Shown piece by piece: positions 13,279-26,792 of a DNA stretch of 27,308 nucleotides. Source of the stretch: a virus; IMG/VR virus record IMGVR_UViG_3300044908_000101, positions 1-27,308 of that record; one strand, given 5' to 3'. Below the pieces are notes generated by a model. It saw only the letters and a list, made by a program, of their open reading frames with translations. It made no database searches and had not been told where the DNA came from. The stretch's first letter is position 1; every line of letters starts with the position of its first letter. A program made the translations under genes and the position numbers.

Positions 13279-14325
13279 TCATAACAACGGTTGCTCCCAA
13301 GCCTCATGTACCCGCTCGACGGTCGAGAACAGCACGTTAAAGTTCTGGACTTCCGGCACCAGCCGGCGATCCCTGGCAACCGGAACCGGTCGTCCTCCGT
13401 CCTGCCTGAGCTCGAACGTCGTATAGCCCTTACCCGCCATGTAATCGCGCAGATCCATCTGCGACGCTCCAAACCGGTCGAGCGCGGGCAGGTTCATCTC
13501 GCAGCAAACGAAATCGATTCCTCGCGTCAGCAACTGCCCCGCGCCGATCAAGGCGTGCAGCTCGGCGCCTTCGATGTCCAGCTTCAGCAGCCGCGGCTTC
13601 TGGTCGTAAGCAAGACACCACTTGTCGAGAGTCAACCCGCCAACTGGCGTCCGGTTCAAGGTTCCCTGCAACGGGGCCAGGCTGCTCATGCCGGTATCCG
13701 CCGGCTGATGAAGCGTGACCTGGGAATCCTCGCTCCACAAGGCACGATTGATGACCGTGACGTTCTCGGCGTGGCTGCGCTCCACGTTAATGCGCAGCTT
13801 CTTGAAATTAACCGTGGACGGCTCGAACGCCTCGACATGACCTTCTGAGCCTGTCGAAGAATCGCCAACGAGACGAGACATCACCATCGTGAAAAAACCA
13901 ATGTTGGCGCCTCCGTCAATGGCAAAGTCGCCCGTACGCAGAACACGCCGCATGAGATGAACGGTCTCCGGCTCGCAGGCGCCGTTATGTTCAAGAAAGC
14001 GCTTCGTCATGACGTCAGCAATAAAACCGGGATCGTACACCAAGTCGAACACGATCTCGCGACCGAGTACGGTCATGTGTACGTGCAGGTCGCTGTTCTC
14101 GCGTCGCTGCTCTAACACCGCCTTGGCGAACGCGCCGTCACGCAGCTTCTCTTCCCGCGCCAATTCGGACCGCCCCTTGACAGTAATGACGTAATTAACG
14201 GAATCGCTGGCGCTCATCAGCCCGCGTTCAGTCAGCGCCAGTAACGGTTCCTTCCACCGGCCAATCGGGGCCATCGACTCGCCTTCCGCCGCGATCATCA
14301 GCACGGTCATCTCGTCGTCGGTCAT
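13279..14325 (-). CDS. FkbM-family methyltransferase with N-terminal extension
   Basis: A 348-residue S-adenosylmethionine-dependent methyltransferase. Motif I is DGGANIGFFT (137-146), the acidic ribose-binding strand is VEAFEP (164-169), and the FkbM signature LKLDIEGAE lies at 247-255. FkbM enzymes usually O-methylate sugars or small hydroxyl groups. Residues 1-60 (WKEPLLALTERGLMSASDSV then NYVITVKG) look like a small winged-helix unit seen as separate proteins in phages; here it is fused. The ATG overlaps the stop of the glycosyltransferase gene (ATGA), so the two are probably made together and act on the same glycan. Confidence 0.85.
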   Translation of the reverse strand: MTDDEMTVLMIAAEGESMAPIGRWKEPLLALTERGLMSASDSVNYVITVKGRSELAREEKLRDGAFAKAVLEQRRENSDLHVHMTVLGREIVFDLVYDPGFIADVMTKRFLEHNGACEPETVHLMRRVLRTGDFAIDGGANIGFFTMVMSRLVGDSSTGSEGHVEAFEPSTVNFKKLRINVERSHAENVTVINRALWSEDSQVTLHQPADTGMSSLAPLQGTLNRTPVGGLTLDKWCLAYDQKPRLLKLDIEGAELHALIGAGQLLTRGIDFVCCEMNLPALDRFGASQMDLRDYMAGKGYTTFELRQDGGRPVPVARDRRLVPEVQNFNVLFSTVERVHEAWEQPLL

Positions 14326-14431
14326 CGCCCAGTTCCCTCAGTCGTTTGGCAGCTTCCAGCAGGAGTTCGCGGTCGTCGGCGCCTTGCAAGACTTCGCGCG
14401 CTCTTTTTTCCAACCTGTCGATCAAGTGCAT
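14228..14431 (-). CDS. Possible nested small ORF between glycosyltransferase and FkbM genes
   Basis: A 67-codon frame overlapping the last 110 bases of the glycosyltransferase gene and the first 98 of the FkbM gene. It has a strong GGAGG nine bases before its ATG. The first 37 residues (MHLIDRLEKRAREVLQGADD; ELLLEAAKRLRELGDD) form a convincing charged helical sequence, more protein-like than the Arg-rich glycosyltransferase tail in the other frame. The rest (RRRDDRADDRGGRR) looks like a shadow of the FkbM frame. It may be a real overlapping gene or a gene that lost its own stop. Confidence 0.4.
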   Translation of the reverse strand: MHLIDRLEKRAREVLQGADDRELLLEAAKRLRELGDDRRRDDRADDRGGRRVDGPDWPVEGTVTGAD

Positions 14432-15797
14432 GAATACGATCCTCCAGCGCCAGTGAGATGTCGTTAAAAACGGGCGCCCAGCGCAAGTCTTCGCCCTGAT
14501 TGAACACGCGGTGATTCGACCATACCTGATCCCGGCCATTCGTGCCCAGACGATAGTCCTTGCCCAGTCGGCTGTAGGGCACCCAGCACTCGGTCCCCGT
14601 CAAAGCGCAGATGTGGGCGAGGGCCGATTCGCAGCAGATCACCAGGTCGAGTTGCTTGAGGACGGAGATGGTATCGACGACGTCTCGGATGTAAGGAGAA
14701 AGGTCTCGCACGAGGGGAAGACCGTGATTGTCATACAAGCGCTGGGATTCAGGCCCAATTTGGAGAGCATATAGCTGAATACTTGGGATTCGATATAAGT
14801 CAAAGAATTGCTCGACGGGGATTGACCGATGCGAGTTGATGTCATTGAACGGACTCCCTGCCCAGGCGATGCCGATATGCAGCTTGCGATCCGTAACCTT
14901 CCAATTCAGCGGGAGCTGGACGACCGGGTACGAGATATGCGGTGCTTGTCGGATTTCTTCGGTCGAGAGCCCGAGCGCGGTCGGGAGGCTGACGAAGGTC
15001 GTCCAGCAATCCGCTTCGGGGAGGGGAGCGGGCTTGGGGACGATGTTGATATTTGGGATTCCAACGAAAGCGTGCATGAACAAACGGACAAGCTCGGGTT
15101 GAACCATAAGATGTAAGTAGCGTGCCCTTTTTGCAGCTGCCGGGATAAAGCGCGCAAAGCTGATGGTGTCGCCGAGACCCTGATCAGCATCGACGTAGAC
15201 CGTTTTTTCACTTTCGCCCTCCCATTGTGCATAAGGCAGATTCAGATACGACTTCAGTTTGTACCTGAAACGTACCTCGAACCGTTTGAAGCCTTCATCC
15301 AGCTTCCGAGCTTGGAGCAACGCGAACGCATAAGCGAGTTCGACGATCGGATCGGACGGCATCAAGTCCCACGCGCGCTGCGCCGCCTCCAGCGCTTCGC
15401 CAACCCTGTTCTGGATCGTCTTAATTTGGGAAATGTGAACCCAGCCATACTGGAGGTTGGGATCGACCTTCAAACCCTCCTCGGTCACGCGGAGAGCCTC
15501 TCGCGACTGCCCAAGACCGTGAAGGCGGTAACCGATGTTGACCAGCGCCTTGGCCTTGGTGCCATCATCCAGGCCGCACTCCAAGGCGCGGCGCCAGCAG
15601 GCGATCGCGGACGGGATCGCGTTGAGATCGGAATGGTTGCAGCCGGCCTGGTAAAACGCTTGCCCCCAGGTCGGATCCGCATTGCAGGCGGACGAGAACA
15701 AATGGAGCGCGTGCTCCAGATGCTTGGGATCATCCTTGTTGTTACTGGACGCAACCGCCTGGTTGTAAAAAAGCGTCGCTTGCTGACGGTCACCCAT
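14322..15797 (-). CDS. TPR-containing glycosyltransferase (GT-B type)
   Basis: A 491-residue protein with start chosen at 15797 (AAGG ten bases upstream); earlier in-frame ATGs either overlap the recombinase or lack a site. Residues 15-175 form tetratricopeptide-like helical repeats (SAIACWRRALECGLDD; REALRVTEEGLKVDPN). Residues 198-450 have glycosyltransferase 9/41-like features: VDADQGLGDTISFARF, then GIAWAGSPFNDINSHRSIP and CESALAHICALTG. The architecture of TPR plus GT-B domain suggests transfer of sugar to a protein or glycan acceptor. The C-terminal 30 residues are Arg-rich and may be a by-product of the overlapping frame. It sits upstream of the FkbM gene. Confidence 0.8.
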   Translation of the reverse strand: MGDRQQATLFYNQAVASSNNKDDPKHLEHALHLFSSACNADPTWGQAFYQAGCNHSDLNAIPSAIACWRRALECGLDDGTKAKALVNIGYRLHGLGQSREALRVTEEGLKVDPNLQYGWVHISQIKTIQNRVGEALEAAQRAWDLMPSDPIVELAYAFALLQARKLDEGFKRFEVRFRYKLKSYLNLPYAQWEGESEKTVYVDADQGLGDTISFARFIPAAAKRARYLHLMVQPELVRLFMHAFVGIPNINIVPKPAPLPEADCWTTFVSLPTALGLSTEEIRQAPHISYPVVQLPLNWKVTDRKLHIGIAWAGSPFNDINSHRSIPVEQFFDLYRIPSIQLYALQIGPESQRLYDNHGLPLVRDLSPYIRDVVDTISVLKQLDLVICCESALAHICALTGTECWVPYSRLGKDYRLGTNGRDQVWSNHRVFNQGEDLRWAPVFNDISLALEDRIHALDRQVGKKSARSLARRRRPRTPAGSCQTTEGTGR

Positions 15798-15868
15798 TAC
15801 GAATTTGCCTTCTTCAAAATGGAATCGACATGACATCTCAACGGTGCGCACCACCCACAGGCGGGTTC

Positions 15869-16600
15869 TCAGTGCGTTTGTTCCAGACCCGAGGCATGTT
15901 TCCCCCTCTTCAACATCCGCCACACCGCCAGGGCCGTATACGGCTTGCCATCTCGCCCCAGCATACCCTCATGCGACATCAGCTCGGCGATGCGCGTCGG
16001 ACCTCTGGCACGCGCCTGGTCCCGGAACCAGCGGGCCGCTCGCGCATGCTCCTCCTCGGCTTCGTTCCGCACGAGGACAGACCTGGTGCCCTCTCCGACC
16101 TTGCGCCAGCCGTACGGGACCGGGCCGCCCGTGTGCCCGCCACGCTCGCGCTTGGCGCGCTTGCCGTCGGCGATGCGCTCGCGGATACGTTCGCGCTCCA
16201 ACTGGGCGAATGCCGACATGACCGTGAATATCACTTGCGCAATCGCCGACTCCGCAACCGGCTCGGCGCCGAGATCGAGAAGAATCAAACCGATCTTCTG
16301 TTTCTTGAACCGCTCGATCATCACGCAAGCATCGGCGGCAGAACGGAACATGCGGTCCAACTTAGCCGCTATCAGCACATCTCCCGACTTCGCAGCCGCA
16401 AGCAACTCCTTGCCGGCAGGACGCTCGTGAAGGGGAATGGAACCGGACACGCCGGCATCCGTGTAGGTTTGAAAATCGTACTTGCCGGCCGAGCCGCGCA
16501 GTCCGGCAATCGCCTTGCATTTCGCCAATTGCTCCGCGATCGTGGTCTTGTCGGGACCAGCCTGCTTGAGCGTCGAGGTGCGGGCGTATGAAAGTATCAC
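15869..16600 (-). CDS. Serine recombinase (resolvase/invertase type)
   Basis: A 243-residue recombinase with a GTG start six bases after GGGAG. The catalytic N-terminal domain has SYARTSTLKQ (Arg7, catalytic Ser9), AGVSGSIPLHERPAG and KLDRMFRSAADA (80-91, with Arg83 and Arg86). The linker helix is MSAFAQLERERIRERIADGK. A short recombinase/DNA-binding part follows (GGPVPYGWRKVGEG; IAELMSHEGMLGRDGKPYTA). At 243 residues it is much smaller than large serine integrases, so it is more like a resolvase, invertase or transposon-type enzyme. I saw no flanking inverted repeats that would mark a mobile element. The role in this phage is open. Confidence 0.88.
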   Translation of the reverse strand: MILSYARTSTLKQAGPDKTTIAEQLAKCKAIAGLRGSAGKYDFQTYTDAGVSGSIPLHERPAGKELLAAAKSGDVLIAAKLDRMFRSAADACVMIERFKKQKIGLILLDLGAEPVAESAIAQVIFTVMSAFAQLERERIRERIADGKRAKRERGGHTGGPVPYGWRKVGEGTRSVLVRNEAEEEHARAARWFRDQARARGPTRIAELMSHEGMLGRDGKPYTALAVWRMLKRGKHASGLEQTH

Positions 16601-16601
16601 C

Positions 16602-16811
16602 TTAATCTCCCGCTCTTAAATTACGCGCCCTTTTTTCAACCGCTTTCCAATAATCGTCAATCTCCCTAACCAAATTCTTAGCATCAGCTCGTAACGGCTC
16701 ATGACTTATCGACCATCGAGGCGTCCAAAAATTCCACCATGGACGCTCATTCTCAGCGGCTAAGTTGCCCAAAACCGTACGAGCACGACTTAATAACGTG
16801 CGACCGTCCAT
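16602..16811 (-). CDS. Small hypothetical protein before the recombinase
   Basis: A 69-residue protein with start at 16811, set by GGAGG five bases upstream; an ATG four codons earlier lies inside the operator palindrome. The product is Trp-rich in the middle (RPWWNFWTPRWSISHEP) and helical at the end (AKNLVREIDDYWKAVEKRAR). It is followed by the recombinase gene with one base between. It is more AT-rich than the neighbours. Because a palindrome and TTGACG box lie just upstream, this gene may open a separately controlled transcript with the recombinase. Confidence 0.6.
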   Translation of the reverse strand: MDGRTLLSRARTVLGNLAAENERPWWNFWTPRWSISHEPLRADAKNLVREIDDYWKAVEKRARNLRAGD

Positions 16812-16822
16812 GACTTCCTCCA

Positions 16823-16841
16823 TGTAGTGTTATTCACTACA
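16823..16841. promoter_or_regulatory. Palindromic operator candidate A
   Basis: A perfect 7-base inverted repeat TGTAGTG-N5-CACTACA. It overlaps the stop codon of the epimerase gene and ends three bases before the GGAGG of the gene at 16602-16811. On the minus strand TTGACG lies 15 bases upstream of it, so a repressor bound here could cover a -10 region. The same palindrome occurs at 21908-21926. On the plus strand it is followed by CTTCTTTTTT and could fold as a terminator, but no plus-strand gene precedes it. Confidence 0.5.
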
Positions 16842-17840
16842 CTTCTTTTTTGCCTCCGTCAAGTGTTTCGCCACCCGCCTGATTCCCTCTTCCAAAGTGA
16901 TCTTGGGCTTGTAGAACTGACTCAGCTTGTAGGTGTCGGCAACGCGGTAGAAGACGCCTTCGGGCTTGGTTTTGTCGCAGACGACGTCTTCATAAGAAGT
17001 CGGGCGAACTTCAGCAAGCGCCATCTCAGCCAATTCTCGGAACGATACCGCAATTCCGGTCCCAAGATTAAGCGTATCGCCAGGCTTCAAAACGTCCTTG
17101 GTCTGCATGACCGCTTCGACGATGTCATCGATGTGAATGAAGTCGCGACATTGTTCCCCGGAACCCCAGATCGCGATCGGGTTCTCTCGATTGACGACGC
17201 GGCGGATGATCGACGGGAAGGGGTAGTCGAAGGACTGATCCTCACCGTAGCCGGAGAAGGGGCGATAAATAAGAACATCGGCCCCGTACTGCTTGACTGC
17301 TAGATGCGCTAGATACTCGCCCGTCAGCTTGGCCCATCCATACGTGACATCCGGGCGGCCGAACTTGGTGGCGCCTTGGGTCACAAGCGACTCGGCGAGC
17401 TTGATGTACTGCAGGCGCTGCTGCAACTCGACGGGATAGACGGCGGAAGACGAGAAGTAGATCACCTTCGGTTTTCGATCTGGACCGACGGCAGAAGGTC
17501 TAGCGCCAACTACCCAACGAAAAAACGCGGCGTCGATCTCCAGGTCGACGGCAACATCAAGTGGGGCATTGTCGATCTTCAACCGGCCGCCAACGATCGC
17601 AGCGCAATGAATGATCAAATCGTACTCGTCGGAATGATCCATCGCCACGACACCGTCGCGAACATCCCACATTCGACGAAAACGAACATAATGCGGCGCC
17701 ACTGGGTCATGCCATTTGTGCAGGGGCTCGCCGGCACTCATGTTGTCGAGCGCGACGACTTCCCAGCCATCGCGGACGAGACGACGGGTGAAGGCGCGCC
17801 CGACAAAGCCGGCGGCGCCAGTGATGAGAACGCGTTTCAT
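16830..17840 (-). CDS. NAD-dependent sugar-nucleotide epimerase/dehydratase
   Basis: A 336-residue extended short-chain dehydrogenase. The start at 17840 overlaps the preceding stop (ATGA); the longer in-frame start is rejected. The Rossmann motif is ITGAAGFVGRAF (Gly8, Gly11, Gly14). The catalytic set is FSSSAVY (Ser130-132) and YGWAK (Tyr167, Lys171). RPFSGYGEDQS and CRDFIHIDDIVEAV are typical of GDP- or dTDP-sugar epimerases and dehydratases. It should make or interconvert the nucleotide sugar used by the neighbouring glycosyltransferases. The exact sugar cannot be read from the sequence; GDP-mannose or UDP-glucose derivatives are possible. Confidence 0.88.
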   Translation of the reverse strand: MKRVLITGAAGFVGRAFTRRLVRDGWEVVALDNMSAGEPLHKWHDPVAPHYVRFRRMWDVRDGVVAMDHSDEYDLIIHCAAIVGGRLKIDNAPLDVAVDLEIDAAFFRWVVGARPSAVGPDRKPKVIYFSSSAVYPVELQQRLQYIKLAESLVTQGATKFGRPDVTYGWAKLTGEYLAHLAVKQYGADVLIYRPFSGYGEDQSFDYPFPSIIRRVVNRENPIAIWGSGEQCRDFIHIDDIVEAVMQTKDVLKPGDTLNLGTGIAVSFRELAEMALAEVRPTSYEDVVCDKTKPEGVFYRVADTYKLSQFYKPKITLEEGIRRVAKHLTEAKKKCSE

Positions 17841-18577
17841 TTTTTCTTTACCCGCTTCCTGATCAGTCCGTATTTGCGTCGCAACTCGCGGGCATCGTAA
17901 TAGGGCGAATCGTCGATCGACGCTATTGCCGCCTTGGACGCGCGCCAACCCCGTTCGTGCTCGATCACTTCACCCCAAAGATATACCGTACCGCTTACAA
18001 CCGTGCCCAGTTGTAAGCGGTACGTATATCCGTAAGCACCTGCAGCCACCCGATCCTTGAAAGCATGAACGCCATTATGCGTGGACACATCACCTTCGAC
18101 GATCTCGCCAGGACGCCACACAAAAACCGATCGGTACATGCTGTAAAGAAGACCGTCCGAATTAAGGTGCCAACAACGATAACCAACTATTTCACCGGCT
18201 CTAATACCGGCGTCTTGGATGGTTGGGGTTGTGGTATCGACCGACGTTGCGGCTGTGCCGGCGACTGCGGAGAAGGCGAAATTGGGACCCGGCGAGAGGG
18301 TGGCGAGACCGCCGGTTCCGGCGCCTGGACCGGGTGCTTGGTTGGCACCACCGTGTGCCTGCGCAGAGGACTTCCGATATCTGCCATATATTTTCTCCTT
18401 CCAGACATGCCTGATAAATCGAGCAGCAGGACGAAACAAGGCGATCCCAGGCTCTACGGCACGCCAAAAACGCAAGGTTAAGATCGCCTGCTTCACTTCC
18501 CGATAAACGACTGCTTCATCCTGCCCACGCGAATCGAGCAGCTGTCTTATATAGAGATTATCCGGAAGAGGCCACAT
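17837..18577 (-). CDS. Two-part hypothetical protein with Gly/Pro/Ala-rich linker
   Basis: A 246-residue protein starting one base after the stop of the upstream glycosyltransferase gene. The N-terminal 70 residues are helical (LYIRQLLDSRGQDEAVVYRE; LFRPAARFIRHVWKEKIYG). The middle 60 residues are a Gly/Pro/Ala/Thr-rich linker. The C-terminal domain starts at GEIVGYRCWHLNSDG and includes VWRPGEIVEGDV, GVHAFKD and GTVYLWGEVIEHERGWRASK, a compact beta-rich domain I associate with conserved phage proteins of unknown function. The linker overlaps a second ORF in another frame with a far better ribosome site, so this may be a fusion or contain a hidden gene boundary. Confidence 0.65.
   Translation of the reverse strand: MWPLPDNLYIRQLLDSRGQDEAVVYREVKQAILTLRFWRAVEPGIALFRPAARFIRHVWKEKIYGRYRKSSAQAHGGANQAPGPGAGTGGLATLSPGPNFAFSAVAGTAATSVDTTTPTIQDAGIRAGEIVGYRCWHLNSDGLLYSMYRSVFVWRPGEIVEGDVSTHNGVHAFKDRVAAGAYGYTYRLQLGTVVSGTVYLWGEVIEHERGWRASKAAIASIDDSPYYDARELRRKYGLIRKRVKKK
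18187..18387 (-). CDS. Nested Pro-rich 66-residue ORF
   Basis: A frame inside the linker region of the gene at 17837-18577. It has an excellent AAGGAG site seven bases before its ATG and ends with TAG. The product starts MADIGSPLRRHTVVPTKHPV and continues as a Pro/Ser/Gln/Glu-rich tail ending SKTPVLEPVK. Short Pro-rich proteins with this kind of opening are common in phage genomes, which together with the ribosome site favours translation. Pro-rich frames can also arise as shadows of Gly/Ala-rich frames, so certainty is limited. Confidence 0.5.
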   Translation of the reverse strand: MADIGSPLRRHTVVPTKHPVQAPEPAVSPPSRRVPISPSPQSPAQPQRRSIPQPQPSKTPVLEPVK

Positions 18578-18578
18578 T

Positions 18579-19865
18579 TCATGCCAACCAAAGCTTCGAA
18601 TGATCGAACTTCCACCCGCCAACGGTCGGCTGCGCCTCCTGGAACTGCATCCCGTACAGGAGCGCGGAACCCGAGAGGACGGTCAACCGCAACAGGCGCC
18701 AGGACACGCCTGTCGGGGCGACCACCTGTGTGACCTGGTTGGACGCCTCAGGGAGAAGCGTAGGCCTCACCACATAGCCCGACTTCGTATCCTCGATCTG
18801 AATCTGCCCACCCTTCTCGCCGCCCATCACCATGAAGCGGGCGGTGCCGGAAGCGCAGCATTCGAACTGAGCGCCATTGCTGTTCTCGTTGGACGAAAAC
18901 TCCATAGTTGCCTTCGGTCCAAAGCCACGAGCGGCGAAGCCGCCGAGGCCGGGAGACCATTTGAGCCGCCAGTCGCCGCTCCAGAAGGCGCGATCAAGGG
19001 AATCGAGTTGGTGCGCAAAGACGATCTGCGTGCCGTCGTCACCCCGGAAGCGGACGGGCGGGCCGCCGATATCAAAATCGCTGGCTCGAAGCGCCGCAGT
19101 CGCATCCTTGAACTCGGCAAACGCTGCGTCGTTCCTCCTGTCCTCGACGGGGGCATCCGCGAGCTTGAGGCCCTGGTCGGCGAGAGAAGGCTTCTGGCCG
19201 ATCATCTCAACGGGCGACGGTACCAGCGCAAGCGACGCAAGACCGTTCGAAGCCAGAACCGCATCATTGCCCCAATCCGGGGTCGTCCAGTGATCATTTG
19301 TCCTGAAAGCCCAGTAAGAGCCGATGTCGATGCCGGAAAGCCGGGCGAACGTGCGGCGGTTCTCGGTCGTCCAGTGCGTGCGGAAATGCTTGAGCGTCAG
19401 CTCGGCAGCCTGGCGCGTCAGGATTTGCATGCCCCAGCCGAGGTTATGCACAAGAGCGTACCCGTCTCGCTGGCAAAGGAGTCGATCCACATATGCTCGC
19501 GCAGACACGGCTCCCACTGCAAGACCATCTGCTGCGCCGCGCTCAAAGAGCGCCATTGTCGGACCGAACCAATCGGGGTGTAGAAGGACGTCATTTTCAA
19601 CAAGTCCGACATGCGTGTAGTCTCCCTTGAGCATTTCGGTCAGCGCGTAGACGACAGCGGTATCGGCGCCGCCTTTGACATTAATATGAACGTGATCCGG
19701 CTTCCCTTCCTCCATATAGTCGCCCGCGAATCGCATGCCGGTCAGCGTGTCGCTACCATCGATTATGAACGTCGTGAACTTGTCGGGCTGCAGCAACGGG
19801 ACGATCGTGCGCTTGGACAGGTCGACGCGATCTTTTGTGAGGAAGGCAATTGCCATTTTATGCAT
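18579..19865 (-). CDS. GT-A-type glycosyltransferase with C-terminal beta-rich domain
   Basis: A 428-residue protein; the ATG at 19865 shares a base with the previous stop (TGATG) and follows GGGGAGAG. The N-terminal 250 residues look like a GT-A glycosyltransferase: a first strand AIAFLTKDRVDLSKRTI, FIIDGSD, and the DXD-like VENDVLLHPDWF (END at 90-92), then WGNDAVLASNG. From about residue 265 a second, Gly/Ser/Phe-rich beta domain follows (FWSGDWRLKWSPGLGG; FECCASGTARFMVMGGEKGG), which may bind carbohydrate or the virion. It probably transfers a sugar supplied by the epimerase pathway. Confidence 0.72.
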   Translation of the reverse strand: MHKMAIAFLTKDRVDLSKRTIVPLLQPDKFTTFIIDGSDTLTGMRFAGDYMEEGKPDHVHINVKGGADTAVVYALTEMLKGDYTHVGLVENDVLLHPDWFGPTMALFERGAADGLAVGAVSARAYVDRLLCQRDGYALVHNLGWGMQILTRQAAELTLKHFRTHWTTENRRTFARLSGIDIGSYWAFRTNDHWTTPDWGNDAVLASNGLASLALVPSPVEMIGQKPSLADQGLKLADAPVEDRRNDAAFAEFKDATAALRASDFDIGGPPVRFRGDDGTQIVFAHQLDSLDRAFWSGDWRLKWSPGLGGFAARGFGPKATMEFSSNENSNGAQFECCASGTARFMVMGGEKGGQIQIEDTKSGYVVRPTLLPEASNQVTQVVAPTGVSWRLLRLTVLSGSALLYGMQFQEAQPTVGGWKFDHSKLWLA

Positions 19866-20089
19866 CAATACTCTCCCCACACTTCTATTTCTCCAATCTG
19901 CTCAATTTTATCAGCAACCTCTGAAAAGAAAGGATCGCGAGCAGCGACAGCCATCGCGCGCAAAATAGGCACATGACGTTCTGCCAACTCACTGCCGCAA
20001 GACTCCAACAAGGCGTTCAAAGAATCTGTCCTCCCGCCTCCGAAAGACTTCGTCCCCTTAATCGGCCGCCAGCAAACCGTGACGCTCAT
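19865..20089 (-). CDS. Small hypothetical protein between two glycosyltransferases
   Basis: A 74-residue protein whose ATG overlaps the stop of the DDDN glycosyltransferase gene (ATGA). The sequence begins MSVTVCWRPIKGTKSFGGGR and continues as helices (SLNALLESCGSELAERHVPI; ADKIEQIGEIEVWGEY). It has a low pI and no recognised domain. Its position suggests a partner of the adjacent glycosyltransferases or simply an operon passenger. Confidence 0.65.
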   Translation of the reverse strand: MSVTVCWRPIKGTKSFGGGRTDSLNALLESCGSELAERHVPILRAMAVAARDPFFSEVADKIEQIGEIEVWGEY

Positions 20090-21132
20090 TTCATAACCTC
20101 GTCGCAGTCCGAGCACCAAGCAAGCCCTAGTTCCTGCAGTTTGCCGCGCTCAGGCATCCACGAAGGGAGATTGGTGAACAAGACACGCATGAAGCCGGTC
20201 ACGCTGGTTTGCCCGAGGAAGCCGTCGAGCCAAGCGGTGAAGTCGAGGATGTGCTCAGCGCCCCATTGCTCGGCGGCCAGATCGCGTAGAAGGTCGTGGG
20301 GATTGCGCTGCTGTAGAACGAACGGTTGCCCGAAGTGCACGTGGTAACCGAATTCCCTTGCAACTCTTTGGGCCACGAGACCCGCATATATATCATCGTA
20401 TCGCCCAAACGCAGGCACCATGAGAAAGCAGGGAGCAAGTTCGCGGATAAAGGCGATGTTCTGAGAGTTGAGCGGCGCCCAGGTTTCCCTCGGATCGGTG
20501 ACGATGCCGGCGCGCAGGAGTTCGCTGACCTGGTGCACCTCGGGATGCTGCGAGATGCGGTCGACCGCCGAGGTGTCGGGATCCCCGAGGATCATGCCTT
20601 GGGCGATGCCGATCTTGGCGCCGGTGACGTGCTTAAACCGAACTTCGTCCCAGTCCAATTCTTGAGGAAAGCCGCGCTGCACCACCTTTGGAAAGCACAG
20701 CGACGCAGGATCAAACCATCTGCCGTAATGAGGACGAGCCATCACGCCGTCGAAAAGTTGTCCTCCGAGCACTGGATACGGCTTCCTGCGCCAGTGAAGC
20801 GCCCGCATGAACGCTTCAAAATAAAATGGATCGAGAGGAATATTGTCGTCATCGATACTGACGATCAATTCCGCGCCCCATTTGAGGGCTTCGAGGAGGG
20901 CGATGTTGCGGCGGTCGATCGTGTTCCAGCCGATCAACTCGGAACACTTATACCCTAAATTTTTCTGCGCCGTCTCATTCAAATACGCGCAATTGTCCAC
21001 ATAATTGTACGGAATTACTGGAGGAGACTTGCTATCGCCAGCCACGAAGAAGCGGACGTCCGGATCGTGCGCCCGATAGAGGGAGAGGACACGGGGGACG
21101 TTTATTGTTGTGATTATAAGAGCGGTTTTCAT
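20086..21132 (-). CDS. Glycosyltransferase with DDDN motif (STELLO/RGP-like)
   Basis: A 348-residue protein. The first strand is KTALIITTINVPRVL, followed by FFVAGDSKSPPV and the nucleotide-sugar and metal-binding VSIDDDNIPLDPFYFEAF (Asp-Asp-Asp-Asn at 94-97). This layout resembles the DUF288/STELLO glycosyltransferases and the reversibly glycosylated polypeptide group. Later parts include RGFPQELDWDEVRF and NSQNIAFIRELAPCFLMVP, YDDIYAGLVAQ. It likely uses a nucleotide sugar from the host or made through the epimerase. The exact family (DUF288 versus GT75) needs a profile search. Confidence 0.75.
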   Translation of the reverse strand: MKTALIITTINVPRVLSLYRAHDPDVRFFVAGDSKSPPVIPYNYVDNCAYLNETAQKNLGYKCSELIGWNTIDRRNIALLEALKWGAELIVSIDDDNIPLDPFYFEAFMRALHWRRKPYPVLGGQLFDGVMARPHYGRWFDPASLCFPKVVQRGFPQELDWDEVRFKHVTGAKIGIAQGMILGDPDTSAVDRISQHPEVHQVSELLRAGIVTDPRETWAPLNSQNIAFIRELAPCFLMVPAFGRYDDIYAGLVAQRVAREFGYHVHFGQPFVLQQRNPHDLLRDLAAEQWGAEHILDFTAWLDGFLGQTSVTGFMRVLFTNLPSWMPERGKLQELGLAWCSDCDEVMK

Positions 21133-21931: not shown

Positions 21932-22411
21932 TCAAGTGCTCCTGGCGGGCTGAAAGCATACCCGCGCGTGCGCCGCGCAGTAGGGAAGCGGGAATTGCCT
22001 GATGGCGCCGCAAAAGAAAAAGCCTTTCTCGCGCGGATCGCCAACTCCGAATTTACAGTGCTCGCGACCAACCGTGAAGATCGTCTTGCGCTGCCGCTTG
22101 GGGATGTCCTGGTCGGCGGGATCGCCGGGCGGATTGCCTTGCGGGTTGACAACAGGTCCGTCGACAATCCTGGAGATGCGCGAGCGGTTCTGGGCGCCGG
22201 GGTTCTTGATGCGAGGATCCTTGCGAGGGAAGCGCCCGCCGAGGCGCGGATGGACCGCGCGCTGCAAACCAAGACGATGCGCCTTGCCCATGATCGCGGA
22301 GCGGGTCAGCGCGAGCTCGGAGGCTATCTGGTAGAAAGACAGGCCGTCGGCGAAGAGCGACTTGAGTTTCTCGACGCGGTCGGGGGTCCAGTCGGAATTT
22401 ACAGTTCCCAT
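21932..22411 (-). CDS. gcrA: GcrA-like cell-cycle regulator
   Basis: A 159-residue protein with both halves of the GcrA family. The N-terminal DNA-binding part is WTPDRVEKLKSLFADGLSFY then QIASELALTRSAIMGKAHRL (residues 8-46). The linker is Arg/Pro-rich. The C-terminal part is CKFGVGDPREKGFFFCGAIR then PLPYCAAHARVCFQPA (Cys119, Cys134, Cys145, His148), the sigma-70-interacting end of GcrA. In Caulobacter GcrA acts with sigma-70 at promoters methylated at GANTC. A phage copy beside DNA methyltransferase genes could redirect host or phage transcription. It overlaps the upstream gene by 13 bases. Confidence 0.85.
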   Translation of the reverse strand: MGTVNSDWTPDRVEKLKSLFADGLSFYQIASELALTRSAIMGKAHRLGLQRAVHPRLGGRFPRKDPRIKNPGAQNRSRISRIVDGPVVNPQGNPPGDPADQDIPKRQRKTIFTVGREHCKFGVGDPREKGFFFCGAIRQFPLPYCAAHARVCFQPARST

Positions 22412-22683
22412 CGTTCATCCAGATACTTAATCGCGAGGTCGGCACGAGAGACTTGGACGAAAAACCGAGGCACGAAAGCCTGACGAGTCACGGCGATCAA
22501 ATCACCATACAGGCTGTCGGCGAGCTGCTTGCGTGTCAACTCGTAAGCAGCGTTCATCCTGATTTTAAGCAAATCCTCCGCCGACGGTAGCGCCTTGATC
22601 GGCATGATCGACGTCACCCGAACGATGGCGGGCGCTGCGACCAACGAAATCAGGCCGGTGATGAGAGAGCGGCGATTCAACAT
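22399..22683 (-). CDS. Twin-arginine-type small protein with capsid-like segments
   Basis: A 94-residue protein overlapping the methyltransferase stop and the gcrA start. Residues 1-26 look like a Tat signal or membrane anchor (NRRSLITGLISLVAAPAIVR). Residues 38-60 (LLKIRMNAAYELTRKQLADS and on) align without gaps to capsid residues 121-143 with 12 of 23 identical. Residues 56-88 (DSLYGDLIAVTRQAFVPRFF and on) align to capsid residues 13-45 with 18 of 33 identical. The order of the two segments is swapped compared with the capsid protein. The function is unknown; export and capsid interaction are both guesses. Confidence 0.68.
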   Translation of the reverse strand: MLNRRSLITGLISLVAAPAIVRVTSIMPIKALPSAEDLLKIRMNAAYELTRKQLADSLYGDLIAVTRQAFVPRFFVQVSRADLAIKYLDERWEL

Positions 22684-23462
22684 TCCAGGTACGCCTTTAT
22701 GAATTCGGCCGCGACTTGCGGAACGATGGCATTTCCGTAGGCGCGCAACTGCTCCATCGCGCCGGTAACCCCATGAGCCACGCGACCCACGGCGGGTTCA
22801 ACCTCCCAGAAACCACATTCTTGCCGTGACTCTGCAAACCGTTCCAACGATTGGCCGTTGGCGTGGGCAAAAGCTGCGCCACTACCCAAGCAAGCGGCTG
22901 ACCGGAAGTCAGCGCGCGTCTGGGCGGTTGCGATCCCAGAAGGGTCCGGCCGTCCCGGCGCGTCGGCGTCGGCCACAAACCAGATTCTTTCGCGGATGTG
23001 CGGAGCGCCGACGCCAGCAGCCGGCAATACGGCCGCCCCGACGGCGTAGTCTTTACTCTCCAGGTCAGCGAGCACAAGGTCGAGCCAAAGGGACGCTCGC
23101 GCAACCTGCTCGCCAAAGACAGTTGAAGGGCGGCAGACGCCGATGAGATGGAACCAGAAAGGCCAGAGGTGCCGCTCGTCAGCAAACCCGCCGCCTTTAC
23201 CTGCCGCGGAGAAAGGCTGGCAAGGACAGCTTCCCGTCCAAACCGGGCGATCAGTTGGCCAACCTGCTGTTGCAAGGGCGAGGGGCCATCCACCGATGCC
23301 GGCGAAGAAATGGCACTGGGTGAAGGGGGCGAGGTCGGCGGGTTTGACATCTTGGATCGGGCGCTCGTCGACGGTTCCAGGGGGAATTAATTGTTTCTGA
23401 ATCAGATTTCGCAGCCATTGGGCGGCGTAGGGGTCGATCTCGTTGTACCAGTTCACCCCCAT
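22677..23462 (-). CDS. DNA (cytosine-5) methyltransferase
   Basis: A 261-residue C5 methyltransferase. Motif I is FFAGIGGWPLAL (52-63), motif IV is GSCPCQPFSAAGK with catalytic Cys81, motif VI is FGEQVA (116-121, a Gln for the usual Asn), motif VIII is RERIWFVA (157-164), and motif X is YGNAIVPQVAAEF (from 242). The distance between motifs I and IV is short, as in compact phage enzymes. The target-recognition part is small. The start at 23462 follows a GCGGGGG run; a GTG two codons later is possible. It modifies cytosines in phage or host DNA, perhaps to avoid restriction. Confidence 0.9.
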   Translation of the reverse strand: MGVNWYNEIDPYAAQWLRNLIQKQLIPPGTVDERPIQDVKPADLAPFTQCHFFAGIGGWPLALATAGWPTDRPVWTGSCPCQPFSAAGKGGGFADERHLWPFWFHLIGVCRPSTVFGEQVARASLWLDLVLADLESKDYAVGAAVLPAAGVGAPHIRERIWFVADADAPGRPDPSGIATAQTRADFRSAACLGSGAAFAHANGQSLERFAESRQECGFWEVEPAVGRVAHGVTGAMEQLRAYGNAIVPQVAAEFIKAYLEC

Positions 23463-23554
23463 CCCCCGCACATGGCATGAGCGGTGACGCCGAGAATTAT
23501 CGCGATCTGGGCGTCGGCGATGAGATGTGCGTAGAGGTTCCAGAGGTCGGGCAT
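23453..23554 (-). CDS. Possible 33-residue ORF before the C5 methyltransferase
   Basis: A short frame (MPDLWNLYAHLIADAQIAII and on) whose stop overlaps the methyltransferase start region. It is hydrophobic in the middle. There is no ribosome site, but TTCACTACA, half of the shared palindrome, ends one base before the ATG. It could be a leader peptide or a chance ORF. Confidence 0.3.
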   Translation of the reverse strand: MPDLWNLYAHLIADAQIAIILGVTAHAMCGGWG

Positions 23555-23588
23555 TTGTAGTGAAAGATTGCATGGGGGGAGGGAGGGG

Positions 23589-24050
23589 TCAAGGGGATTC
23601 CAAAATGAAGGCCGCGATATGACGGCCGGTGCCTTTTCCAACGGAGTTATCCTCAATCGCGAGCCAACGAACGTCGCCAAGGTTGCGGACCCGCGTTCCA
23701 ATTGCGGACAGGAGCATCAATACCCATTTGTCGACGGGATAAACAAGAACAACTAATTTTCCTTTTTGCTGCTCAATTATCGCTTTTCGAACCCAAGCGG
23801 TCGGTCCTTTCTTTTTACCTTCGTGAATTATGCTGCCGAATGGTGGATTGACGTAATTGCGCAGGCCCCATTCACACGTCAGTCCATCAAAGTCGGGCGG
23901 AAGAGGGTGCGGGCAAGGATCGAAATCAAAATTAAATTCAGCATTTAATTGAGCGTAGAGCGCGGGCGGCGTGAGCCAATAATGCTTGCCGTCGGCGCCG
24001 TTGCCGAGGTGGAATTTATTGTTTTGCGGGCGAAGTTGAGATTGGTGCAT
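23589..24050 (-). CDS. Dam-like N6-adenine DNA methyltransferase
   Basis: A 153-residue protein (159 if started at a GTG at 24068). It has the phage Dam-type pattern YWLTPPALYAQLNAEFNFDF then DPCPHPLPPDF and the catalytic NPPF in RNYVNPPFGS. GKLVVLVYPVDKWV and GRHIAAFILESP follow as later strands. NPPF replaces the more common D/NPPY, as in other members of this family. It likely methylates adenines in phage DNA. No ribosome site is visible; TATAAT lies seven bases before the ATG, so a leaderless transcript is possible but the -35 is poor. Confidence 0.8.
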   Translation of the reverse strand: MHQSQLRPQNNKFHLGNGADGKHYWLTPPALYAQLNAEFNFDFDPCPHPLPPDFDGLTCEWGLRNYVNPPFGSIIHEGKKKGPTAWVRKAIIEQQKGKLVVLVYPVDKWVLMLLSAIGTRVRNLGDVRWLAIEDNSVGKGTGRHIAAFILESP

Positions 24051-24229
24051 GGCAGGAATTATAAGCACGAAATGAGAGGGGATGCACTACAAATTTTTGG
24101 AAAAATTCCGGGGGACACGTGGGGTGAGGTGCCTCGAAACTCCTGTCTTCGCAGTCCATCGCCTCGCGCAATGGTTGAGGTAGTGGCGGTTGCGCAGCTA
24201 CATTTTGTCGCATTGTCGCACTTACCCTA

Positions 24230-24501: not shown

Positions 24502-24915
24502 ATGACGCTTGACCGACAATCGGAATTTACCCTTGCCGCGCGCGATAGCAGGCCTCTAGAGCACCGCGATTCGCTCCCGGGCAAGACGGAAGCATCGCCT
24601 TTCTGGCGCGCAATGGTGCTCCTAATCGAGCCGCCCTACACCCGCGACAAACTCGTCAATTTCTTCGAACAGCGCGCGCAATACGCGGCAATTCGCAATT
24701 GGCGCTATGGCCATCGCATCCCGCCCGATTGGGCGTCCGAAATGATTCGGCATGAATTAGAGCGGCGCGCTGCAGCGCTCAAAAGCGTGGCCCAGTCACT
24801 CGCTAAACGCGGACCGGGGCCAGCGATCCGCGGCACAGCTCAGCTGCACGCGTGGCGCGCCAAGCAAGCGGAGGAACGCGAGGCAAAGAAAAAGGCCTCC
24901 GAAGAGGCCTCTTAA
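24502..24915 (+). CDS. Hypothetical plus-strand protein, possible DNA-binding
   Basis: A 137-residue basic protein. Residues 34-90 (FWRAMVLLIEPPYTRDKLVN; YAAIRNWRYGHRIPPDWASE; MIRHELERRAAALKSVAQSL) look like a helical domain with a possible helix-turn-helix (AIRNWRYGHRIPPDWASEMI). The last 20 residues are Lys/Glu/Ala-rich and are encoded by a degenerate copy of the terminator cassette repeat, so the gene end may have been rewritten by that repeat. There is no clear ribosome site before the ATG, and an in-frame stop lies nine bases upstream. Confidence 0.6.
   Translation: MTLDRQSEFTLAARDSRPLEHRDSLPGKTEASPFWRAMVLLIEPPYTRDKLVNFFEQRAQYAAIRNWRYGHRIPPDWASEMIRHELERRAAALKSVAQSLAKRGPGPAIRGTAQLHAWRAKQAEEREAKKKASEEAS
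24865..24913 (-). terminator. Terminator cassette copy A (degenerate)
   Basis: AGGCCTC-CGAA-GAGGCCT (24893-24910), read on the minus strand as a TTCG-loop hairpin followed by TTTTTCTTT. The adjacent 17-base segment at 24865-24881 (AAGCGGAGGAACGCGA core) matches copies B and C. The TTGACA box of the other copies has decayed here. It overlaps the 3' end of the plus-strand gene. Confidence 0.6.
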
Positions 24916-24942
24916 ATTCCGCGCCATCCCCAGCCATTAGGC

Positions 24943-24977
24943 CTCGGGTGTCAAGCGGAGGAACGCGAAAAGAAAAG
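24943..24977. repeat. 35-base perfect direct repeat, first copy
   Basis: Identical over 35 bases to 25268-25302. The repeat holds the TTGACA box, the AAGCGGAGGAACGCGA segment and the T-tract of the terminator as read on the minus strand. A shorter match lies at 24865-24881. Confidence 0.9.
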
Positions 24978-24995
24978 AGCGGCCGAAGCCGCTCT
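24943..24995 (-). terminator. Terminator cassette copy B
   Basis: AGAGCGGC-CGAA-GCCGCTCT (24976-24995), on the minus strand a perfect 8-bp TTCG-loop hairpin followed by TTTTCTTTTC. It ends the gene at 25002-25205, whose stop lies six bases before it. A TTGACA box follows (24954-24949), but no -10 or gene comes after it before terminator A. It shares a 35-base identical segment with copy C. Confidence 0.8.
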
Positions 24996-25001
24996 ACCGG
25001 T

Positions 25002-25205
25002 TCAATAAATTTCAACGATCAATTCACCGTCTTTGTAAATATGGACCGCTTCCAAGGGCGCGGACGCTTCGCATGCCCTCTTATAGGCGTCGGACAGCAT
25101 GTATAATGCTTCCCACTTGGCCTCTTTGAATGTGTCCGCTGACCGCTCCGCATCGCACCCGTTGTCAACATCAGTGGCGCTTTGGAATCCTAAAAGTTTG
25201 TACAT
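25002..25205 (-). CDS. Small acidic early-type protein
   Basis: A 67-residue acidic protein (MYKLLGFQSATDVDNGCDAE; FKEAKWEALYMLSDAYKRAC; VHIYKDGELIVEIY) with a GAGGAGAG site before its ATG. It has its own promoter (copy C cassette) and its own terminator (copy B), so it is a single-gene unit. The fold looks like strand, long helix, two strands. Small acidic proteins in such units are often early host-takeover or inhibitor proteins; this is inference from layout only. Confidence 0.72.
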   Translation of the reverse strand: MYKLLGFQSATDVDNGCDAERSADTFKEAKWEALYMLSDAYKRACEASAPLEAVHIYKDGELIVEIY

Positions 25206-25249
25206 GTCCGTCTCTCCTCAATTCAACCGCAAAGTGTTTCGACGCAATT

Positions 25250-25279
25250 ATTAAAGCACGGCTTTGGCTCGGGTGTCAA
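25250..25279 (-). promoter_or_regulatory. Promoter of cassette C
   Basis: TTGACA (25279-25274), an 18-base spacer, then TTTAAT (25255-25250) on the minus strand, within CGTGCTTTAATAATTGCG, an 18-base segment shared with cassette D. It drives the gene at 25002-25205. Confidence 0.75.
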
Positions 25280-25302
25280 GCGGAGGAACGCGAAAAGAAA
25301 AG
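25268..25302. repeat. 35-base perfect direct repeat, second copy
   Basis: Identical to 24943-24977. It joins the T-tract of terminator C to the -35 box of promoter C, which is why the two functions travel together. Confidence 0.9.
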
Positions 25303-25324
25303 GGCCAGCGAATTGCTGGCCCTT
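25300..25324 (-). terminator. Terminator of cassette C
   Basis: AAGGGCCAGC-GAATT-GCTGGCCCTT, a perfect 10-bp stem, followed on the minus strand by TTTTCTTTTC. It lies 14 bases after the stop of the gene at 25338-25538. The stem sequence differs fully from copies A and B while the flank is identical. Confidence 0.85.
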
Positions 25325-25337
25325 GAACGCGAACAGC

Positions 25338-25538
25338 CTATTGACAGGCGCGCCAGTCAGTCTGCCGGTGTTCGCGCCGACCCTGAATATCAATTGTCTT
25401 CAGCATCGAAGCCCGATTCGGCCAAACTTGGTAAACAACGTCAAAGTTCATCCCGGCTTGGCTGCGCTTTGCGGTACGTTCGGGATGTTCCGGAACGTGT
25501 TTAATGCTATCAGCGAAAGAAAGCGTATAGAGTTTCAT
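25338..25538 (-). CDS. Small basic early-type protein
   Basis: A 66-residue basic protein (MKLYTLSFADSIKHVPEHPE; RTAKRSQAGMNFDVVYQVWP; SMLKTIDIQGRREHRQTDW). The start at 25538 follows a GGGGAGTAAGGGAA purine run; a longer in-frame form reaches into the leader. It has its own promoter (cassette D) and terminator (cassette C). It probably forms a small alpha/beta domain. No family is recognised. Confidence 0.7.
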   Translation of the reverse strand: MKLYTLSFADSIKHVPEHPERTAKRSQAGMNFDVVYQVWPNRASMLKTIDIQGRREHRQTDWRACQ

Positions 25539-25576
25539 TTCCCTTACTCCCCTTCCAAGGTGTTTCAACCGCAATT

Positions 25577-25606
25577 ATTAAAGCACGACTTCGGCGCGTT
25601 CGTCAA
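25577..25606 (-). promoter_or_regulatory. Promoter of cassette D
   Basis: TTGACG (25606-25601), an 18-base spacer, then TTTAAT (25582-25577) on the minus strand. The -10 region and the following bases match promoter C (GTGCTTTAATAATTGCG and a nearby GAAACAC). The -35 begins within the T-tract end of terminator D. Confidence 0.75.
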
Positions 25607-25611
25607 GAAAA

Positions 25612-25636
25612 AAGAGCGGCTGCATTGGCCGCTCTT
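25612..25636 (-). terminator. Terminator of cassette D
   Basis: AAGAGCGGC-TGCATTG-GCCGCTCTT, a perfect 9-bp stem, followed by TTTTTTCTTGAC on the minus strand. The stem starts with the same AGAGCGGC as copy B. It lies seven bases after the stop of an ORF remnant at 25643. Confidence 0.85.
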
Positions 25637-25642
25637 GAACGA

Positions 25643-25768
25643 TTAAAACTCAATCTCGGCATAGGCCGGCGCGGGACTCGGTGCCCGAGGGGGTACGCCA
25701 GGCCGCGTCAGATCAATTATTTCGGGCTGAAATATTTCGTGATTATTAAACGCTTTCGGATTTTGCTA
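25643..25768 (-). pseudogene. Possible gene remnant without a start codon
   Basis: A 41-codon open stretch ending in TAA seven bases before terminator D. It reads HEIFQPEIIDLTRPGVPPRA then PSPAPAYAEIEF, which looks coding. It has no ATG, GTG or TTG and is closed upstream by TAG. By the cassette layout a third single-gene unit is expected here, so this may be its decayed 3' end. A CTG or ATT start cannot be excluded. Confidence 0.3.
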
Positions 25769-25800
25769 TCTTTGACGCAGCAAATGAAGGGACAACGAAA

Positions 25801-26085
25801 ATGGCAAAGAAAAACATTATTGCGGTCGGTACTCGTGTCGCCCTTTCTGCGAACTTCCTCCGCAACACAGGGCAGATGACTGGCCCTGCTGGATCGCGGC
25901 GTGGCACTGTTGTGGGTTTTGAAGGCAGTCAATTCGCACGGGTGCGTTGGGATACCGGAGTTGACTACGCGGCATTGTCGGCACAATGGGGCGAAGATTT
26001 CGCCGAAGACGTTCGCGTCAACGGTTCAATGGTGAATATCGGTAATCTTGCTGCAATCGGGTCGTCTGCTATGTCGGCGAATTAA
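25801..26085 (+). CDS. Small SH3/KOW-like phage protein
   Basis: A 94-residue plus-strand protein with GAAGGGA upstream of its ATG. The opening MAKKNIIAVGTRVALSANFL is followed by RRGTVVGFEGSQFARVRWDT, a strand-loop-strand typical of small SH3 or KOW folds that bind nucleic acid or protein. It ends VNIGNLAAIGSSAMSAN. I recall this general pattern in phage genomes, with no set function. An extended -10 (TGCTATCTT) lies about 30 bases upstream, with no clear -35. Confidence 0.72.
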   Translation: MAKKNIIAVGTRVALSANFLRNTGQMTGPAGSRRGTVVGFEGSQFARVRWDTGVDYAALSAQWGEDFAEDVRVNGSMVNIGNLAAIGSSAMSAN

Positions 26086-26255
26086 ATCGCAATCAAGCAC
26101 CAGCGCTCTTGACATACCCCCTGTGAGGTACGCCTCAAGCTGGACGATAACGGTAGCGGATACGTTGTCGTGGCGAATTGAGTCGGCAATCATTCCCGGC
26201 CAAGTCGTACGCCAAGCGCTTTGCGGCGGTGCACCTATACGTAACGGATAAGGAT

Positions 26256-26281
26256 TTTTTGTAACGCCACCGTTACAAAAA
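26256..26281. repeat. Perfect 11-bp inverted repeat
   Basis: TTTTTGTAACG-CCAC-CGTTACAAAAA. The stem has A/T tracts on both sides, so it could serve as a bidirectional terminator for the plus-strand gene ending at 26085 or as part of an origin. Each arm contains the GTAAC pentamer that recurs to its right. Confidence 0.65.
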
Positions 26282-26300
26282 TTCGCTTTCAATTCCAATG

Positions 26301-26449
26301 TGGTAACTGGTGTAACTGTTGTAACTTATATTGGAGTAGAGTAGTAATAACCAACCACCACTCCCCGCCATCCATATATACGCCTTTAATAATACGCTCC
26401 CGATTCCTACAGCTCTATGGGAATCAGTTGTTACACCGTTACCCGTTAC
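26301..26449. repeat. Iteron-like GTAAC cluster
   Basis: Three tandem 9-base units, TGGTAACTG, GTGTAACTG and TTGTAACTT, lie at 26301-26327. Three inverted GTTAC units lie at 26430-26449. Between them is an AT-rich stretch. Tandem iterons flanking an AT-rich segment are a usual mark of replication origins or of a repressor binding array. Confidence 0.5.
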
Positions 26450-26456
26450 AGCGTTT

Positions 26457-26792
26457 TCAGTGTAGTGCCATGAGCCTTTCGTTCGCCGGATCGGCGGTCA
26501 TCATGGCCCACATGGTGAAGTGAAATTCCTTAGCGTTTTTAATTACTTCTCTCGTCTCTGGAGCGTACTCGAACAAGTAGCCCACGACCTCGCTCGCGGC
26601 GTCTCCGAGCGTCGTTTGGAGGGTGATCGGCACCGTTACGCCTCCCAACTTTGCCGCCAACTCCTTGGATTTGACGCGCATGGCGGTTATGATCTTGTCC
26701 AAGTCTTTGATATCGCTGGTCATTACGAAGCTGTGCAGCGTCAAGCCGACTGTCAGTTCCATTGTCAGCAGGTAACTTTCTACCTTTTTCAT
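26457..26792 (-). CDS. Hypothetical protein downstream of the primase/helicase
   Basis: A 111-residue protein whose ATG overlaps the primase/helicase stop (ATGA). It contains MELTVGLTLHSFVMTSDIKD, helix DKIITAMRVKSKELAAKLGG, strand VTVPITLQTTLG and a helical end (APETREVIKNAKEFHFTMWA). No family is recognised. It is probably co-expressed with the replication gene. Confidence 0.65.
   Translation of the reverse strand: MKKVESYLLTMELTVGLTLHSFVMTSDIKDLDKIITAMRVKSKELAAKLGGVTVPITLQTTLGDAASEVVGYLFEYAPETREVIKNAKEFHFTMWAMMTADPANERLMALH

Follow-up and report, generated by a model that had tools for sequence, protein, structure and literature searches.

Putative PeSL-like terminator-promoter modules at a probable small-gene exchange locus of non-T4 phages

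The locus described here raises the question of whether the hairpins and promoter-like elements that separate single small phage genes are modules through which such genes are swapped between related phages. It lies in a virus contig of 27,308 bases, a phage fragment of 27.3 kb that was analyzed over its whole length and is referred to below as the window. A sequence-only reading had proposed recombining modules of this kind. The comparison with related phages supports the proposal, as different, non-homologous genes were found at the same position, together with remixed module halves and scars of gene replacement. We consider it likely that the elements are composite terminator-promoter modules, similar to the promoter early stem-loops (PeSLs) of T4-type phages, in an accessory-gene exchange hotspot of a phage that is not of the T4 type.

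The window encodes a large terminase, whose matches to phage terminases are weak and include none of the T4 type, and the end of a Prim-Pol/VapE-type primase, for which the Pfam match was obtained on the orthologue in a related contig (L008). A serine resolvase (Pfam PF00239), a GcrA-type protein (PF07750), a C5 DNA methylase, and a Dam-like methylase are also encoded. GcrA is an alphaproteobacterial cell-cycle regulator. Because the phage carries a GcrA gene, the host of this phage group is probably an alphaproteobacterium; scans of species genomes with the cassette and the terminase gave no match, either to a host or to a prophage. The genes of the GcrA-type regulator (21932–22411), the C5 methylase (22677–23573), and the Dam-like methylase (23589–24068) adjoin one another on the minus strand, and their products could couple the transcription of phage genes to DNA methylation, in the manner of host GcrA. 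Between the terminase and the replication genes, a run of sugar- and nucleotide-type genes (13279–21132, minus strand) is unusual for a small phage fragment. It includes an FkbM-type methyltransferase (Pfam) and, as judged by eye, a possible NAD-dependent epimerase and a glycosyltransferase-like protein.

The features of the locus are listed in Table 1. Read along the minus strand from 25710 to 24865, they comprise a gene remnant, terminator C, promoter C, gene 1, terminator D, promoter D, gene 2, terminator B, which is followed by a −35 box without a −10 box, and finally terminator A. The four minus-strand hairpins that had been pointed out were all recovered, each with a U-rich tail and each more stable than shuffled sequence (z −3.5 to −5.7). 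Searching the whole window against Rfam at the gathering score gave no match, and a tRNA scan was negative. The idea of hairpin A as a two-way terminator was discarded, as no T-run follows any of the hairpins on the plus strand.

Table 1. Positions of the cassette elements and neighboring genes in the window.
Feature	Coordinates	Strand	Details
Remnant, last 21 codons and stop, ...PSPAPAYAEIEF then stop (...PAYAEIEF then stop)	25643–25710	−	versus L008 4629–4696, 95% over 125 nt
Cassette C terminator hairpin AAGAGCGGCCAATGCAGCCGCTCTT, then T-run	25612–25636	−	fold −15.1 kcal/mol, z −3.9
Cassette C promoter-like element	25570–25606	−	TTGACG 25606–25601, 18-nt spacer, TTTAAT 25582–25577, in GTGCTTTAATAATTGCG 25586–25570
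Small gene 1, 66 aa, MKLYTLSF...	25338–25538	−	no family match
Cassette D terminator hairpin AAGGGCCAGCAATTCGCTGGCCCTT, then T-run	25300–25324	−	fold −19.8 kcal/mol, z −5.7
35-nt segment: tail, CGCGTTCCTCCGCTTGAC flank, part of spacer	25268–25302	−	identical to 24943–24977
Cassette D promoter-like element	25243–25279	−	TTGACA 25279–25274, 18-nt spacer, TTTAAT 25255–25250, GTGCTTTAATAATTGCG 25259–25243
Small gene 2, 67 aa, MYKLLGF...	25002–25205	−	no family match; ORF, leader at same spacing
Copy B terminator hairpin AGAGCGGCTTCGGCCGCTCT	24976–24995	−	fold −15.4 kcal/mol, z −3.5
Copy B, 35-nt repeat up to TTGACACCCGAG	24943–24977	−	−35 at 24954–24949, without −10 or gene
Copy A terminator hairpin AAGAGGCCTCTTCGGAGGCCTTTT, within convergent ORF 3′ end	24890–24913	−	fold −15.7 kcal/mol, z −4.3
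Convergent gene, 137 aa, MTLDRQSEF...RAKQAEEREAKKKASEEAS	24502–24915	+	orthologues at same place in L004, L006, L008
Leftward-facing 94-aa gene past shared upstream region	25801–26085	+	

The 35 bases that had been described as identical in two copies are indeed shared by B and D; when the region was dinucleotide-shuffled 1000 times, exact repeats did not exceed 14 nt. Exact repeats of at least 17 nt in the whole window consist of this segment, the promoter identity of C and D, and one related 17-mer in A; none was found elsewhere in the window. The claim that all four hairpins have nearly the same flank did not hold for C, whose terminator half is 45–57% identical to those of A, B, and D, which is the level of chance.

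Additional copies in related genomes had been named as the test of the proposal, and three phage contigs supply them. Exact IMG/VR scans with the two shared segments identified L004 (3300043783_000152), L006 (3300044946_000177), and L008 (3300021420_000028), which are contigs of 63.7–66.6 kb. All three carry the same elements at the same locus, between the Prim-Pol/VapE primase and the convergent gene of ~137 aa, with different, non-homologous genes. The surroundings are conserved: the GcrA genes beside the region are 91–96% identical, and the primase end and a 111-aa gene are 97% identical between the window and L008. The small-gene region flanked by these conserved blocks differs in every phage. 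Using the leader sequence, the convergent gene, and GcrA as queries added no close relatives to these three, and exact 17-mer matches in L003, L005, and L007 were rejected as chance matches in unrelated contigs. Among 42 distant relatives found via a small neighboring protein, no promoter segment or comparable repeated cassette was detected except in L025, which is L004's own contig. The cassette DNA showed no similarity to anything in 50,697 phage records, a plasmid collection, or species genomes. The intergenic sequence beside the primase and 111-aa genes (window 26230–26460; L006 6020–6320; L008 2650–2870) contains 8–9 GTAAC/GTTAC motifs, compared with 0.4–0.6 expected from shuffling. This set includes the inverted repeat TTTTTGTAACGCCACCGTTACAAAAA and possibly represents replication-origin iterons or repressor operators.

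Cassettes C and D had each been described as continuing from the terminator into a TTGAC box ending in G or A, an 18-nt spacer, TTTAAT within a shared segment, a leader, and one small ORF, and this arrangement was confirmed. The pattern TTGAC-N16-18-TTTAATAATTG has eight matches in the four records (~224 kb), all of them at this region and on one strand, the transcribed one, and none in reversed controls. Likewise, all 12 TTTAATAATYR sites of the four records lie within this region. Five of the eight matches are full terminator-promoter cassettes (window C, window D, L004, and L006 copies 1 and 2), and the remaining three are a second promoter version, P′ (TTGACTCCCGTTTTAAATCGTGTTTAATAATTG, spacer 16). 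The spacing of the boxes is constant at 16–18 nt, with a spacer sequence that varies. A standard sigma-70 promoter scan reported no promoter at these elements because TTTAAT lacks the A that is usual at position 2 of the −10 box, which counts against a promoter role; the TTGAC...TTTAAT elements are regarded as putative promoters on the strength of their conservation. Farther upstream, GCAAAATCCGAAAGCGTTTAATAATCACG (window 25740–25750, minus strand), together with the sequence upstream of it to 25771, looks like P′ minus its middle. This stretch is perhaps another decayed cassette; its TTTAATAATCA core recurs at this position in each of the four records.

To compare the parts of the modules, the junctions were cut at CTTG into a terminator half and a promoter half, for which chance identity had a null mean of 54% and a maximum of 67%. 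The terminator halves were of two types. Window C, L004, L006 copy 2, and L008 have the C type, whereas A, B, D, and L006 copy 1 have the tail type, to which the convergent gene's true 3′ ends also belong in all four phages. The promoter halves do not track this grouping. C and D have only the promoter half in common. L006 copy 2 combines a terminator half that is 82–84% identical to the C types, and at the chance level of 53% to that of window D, with a promoter half that is 83% identical to that of window D and fully identical over the spacer and −10 segment. The terminator half of window D matches the end of the convergent gene in L006 at 94% identity and the L008 element L008_D at 98%, and the right halves in these two comparisons are at chance level. 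These mixed halves indicate that exchange occurred at the joint of terminator and promoter, and several breakpoints lie at this boundary, CTTGAC.

No match to Pfam or PHROG was obtained for the small genes or for the convergent gene. A homologue of gene 1 (59–62% identical) is located in an unrelated 89-kb phage record, in a tightly packed gene cluster with no cassette, which shows gene 1 to be real and the cassette to be a property of the phage group and not of the gene. Gene 2 has one weak homologue (L009, 35% identity). The five genes downstream of the five full cassettes are mutually unrelated (best blastp E value, 0.41), and P′ is located upstream of a DUF932 gene in L004 and L008 and of an unrelated gene of ~92 aa in L006. 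A promoter and leader stretch of 51–55 nt recurs at 94–96% identity across the phages before unrelated genes. A leftward-facing gene beyond the region shows the same behavior: window 25710–25808 is 95–96% identical to L006 and L008, in which this upstream region leads to a 64-aa gene unrelated to the 94-aa protein of the window.

Gene replacement has also left scars. The gene to which the remnant belongs is intact in L004 (5881–6183, minus strand) and L008 (4394–4696), and ~1.45 kb is absent from the window relative to L008, comprising P′, the DUF932 gene, and most of the remnant's gene. The new gene of L004 (MALRK...) is preceded by nine leftover codons of the L006-type gene MTRWKYMGD. A terminator and a −35 box without a −10 box or a gene are found in window B, L008 C, and L008 D. 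Judged from its sequence, copy B is a decayed cassette that has kept its −35 box and lost its −10 box and its gene. The earlier suggestion that copies A and B lie together as if a gene had been lost is thus correct for B and incorrect for A, which is the 3′ end of the convergent gene.

Hairpin A is situated wholly inside the convergent ORF, whose orthologues in L004, L006, and L008 are 46–93% identical and have variable 3′ ends. The A/B/D flank, CGCGTTCCTCCGCTTG, reads on the opposite strand as QAEER(E), with which the conserved codons of the convergent gene end. The −35 box overlaps the QAEERE codons, and the real gene end of L004 reads CGCTTGACGGGC. A is a predicted terminator that overlaps the convergent gene's true 3′ end, as opposed to half of a lost cassette. 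L008_D retains a longer decayed stretch resembling the convergent gene, and one module type is best explained as a copied 3′ end of this gene fused to a promoter. Separately, the region between terminator D and the final terminator of L008 (4880–5540) contains a frameshifted stretch resembling the convergent gene, as well as a minus-strand ORF (MQRFHLSFVYKG...) without a promoter cassette.

The modules thus recur before differing genes, with mixed halves and replacement scars around them. We infer that the hairpins terminate transcription and that the TTGAC...TTTAAT elements initiate it. Every module would then stop transcription of the preceding gene and start that of the one small gene after it, so that every small gene would be a self-contained transcription unit. 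Recombination at or inside a module could replace the neighboring gene and leave the transcription of other genes unharmed, which would be possible because related phages share the modules. As additional shared sequence, the A, B, and D modules bring the final codons of the convergent gene in antisense. Shared module sequence presumably guides the exchange and is not simply retained by later selection. Against this reading, the independent exchange events are few, as only four phages are known, and no copy turned up beyond this phage group in the collections scanned. It is tentatively proposed that non-T4 phages independently evolved a connector with interchangeable halves at a fixed CTTGAC joint, the convergent-gene antisense tail being one terminator type that is repeatedly copied in as genes are added.

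The main rival is ordinary moron accumulation, by which illegitimate recombination would strike anywhere, selection would retain those inserts that have a promoter before and a terminator after them, and the repeats would be no guide. We regard this as a serious possibility that nevertheless falls short of being probable. The C- and D-type halves have only ~6 nt (CTTGAC) of homology in common at the breakpoint, a length that would not suffice for ordinary homologous recombination, and this joint could be explained by illegitimate recombination together with selection; the 21-codon remnant and the nine L004 codons show breakpoints outside the modules too. However, a promoter and leader stretch of 51–55 nt that is 94–96% identical before unrelated genes means that signals are reused and not newly acquired with each gene, and the gene 1 homologue occurs elsewhere without a cassette. 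Guided exchange and random recombination with selection may both act. Another account, in which A, B, and D are decayed local copies of the 3′ end and terminator of the convergent gene and any likeness to a promoter is secondary, seems unlikely. The flank does encode QAEERE on the opposite strand, and D and L006 copy 1 have terminator halves that match true gene ends in L006 and L004, but the identical promoter halves (TTGAC...GTGCTTTAATAATTGCG plus leader) would be left unexplained, as would cassette C, which has a terminator with no relation to that tail. Tail duplication is likely the origin of one module type and insufficient as a full account.

Site-specific recombination was also considered, with integron-like cassettes or a comparable system using the hairpins as recombination sites. 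Single small genes between hairpins with variable stems and conserved flanks would fit it, as would the serine resolvase (PF00239) of the phage. This is very improbable, however, as attC boxes (GTTRRRY/RYYYAAC) are absent beside all four hairpins, the boundaries are ragged with gene remnants, and a T-run follows every hairpin, with a −35 box after most of them. Hardly any credence can be given to the spread of a mobile REP- or MITE-like repeat into the region. Short near-identical copies with hairpins recall such elements, but the copies are confined to this locus in all four records, are absent from phage, plasmid, and genome collections, and are each oriented with the genes.

T4-type PeSLs, which are described second-hand in PMC4503421, are composite conserved promoter-terminator motifs that are said to mediate modular shuffling. 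As with PeSLs, a terminator stem-loop and a promoter lie here between small accessory genes in a plastic region for which shuffling among related phages is proposed. A hairpin with a T-run followed by TTGAC-N16-18-TTTAAT was found in window C, window D, L004, and both L006 copies, and the motif is conserved among related phages whose flanking genes differ. Neither a T4-type myovirus nor a T4 early promoter was found when the cassette was compared with the 50,697 phage records and the relatives of the terminase were inspected. Unlike PeSLs, the modules reside in a phage with a Prim-Pol/VapE primase and GcrA that is unrelated to T4, each genome has one to three complete promoter copies, all at one locus, the coding tail of a convergent gene is present in antisense in one module type, and terminator and promoter halves are exchanged separately. 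The cassettes would work like PeSLs. They are not members by descent, given a phage with no relation to T4 and the lack of any cassette match among the phage records. The primary papers on PeSLs in T4-type phages are reportedly those of Arbiol 2010 and Comeau 2014.

Lambdoid morons are single small accessory genes with their own promoter and terminator, the signals being individual to each. Small genes 1 and 2 resemble them at the sequence level, as each has its own predicted promoter and terminator and lies between conserved genes; unlike in morons, a common cassette is reused here before unrelated genes. The haloarchaeal virus HGTV-1 has a repeated promoter box and inverted repeat before many ORFs, which have been likened to PeSLs, but its motif has an archaeal TATA-type promoter and precedes most ORFs of one genome half (PMC3950731). 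In Cluster K mycobacteriophages, the short SAS/ESAS repeats precede numerous small genes that belong to different families, and some of them include an inverted repeat; SAS differs in that it sits at the start codon, has a proposed role in translation, and forms no terminator-promoter unit (PMC3203893).

If the interpretation as PeSL-like exchange modules is true, gene-swap connector cassettes would not be peculiar to T4-type phages and would have had a separate origin in an unrelated group. The locus would provide a compact system of ~4 kb in which recombination guided by shared regulatory sequence can be tested against retention by selection only. Furthermore, TTGAC-N16-18-TTTAATAATTG after a terminator would offer a handle for finding the accessory genes of such phages, which change fast and almost all lack a family match.
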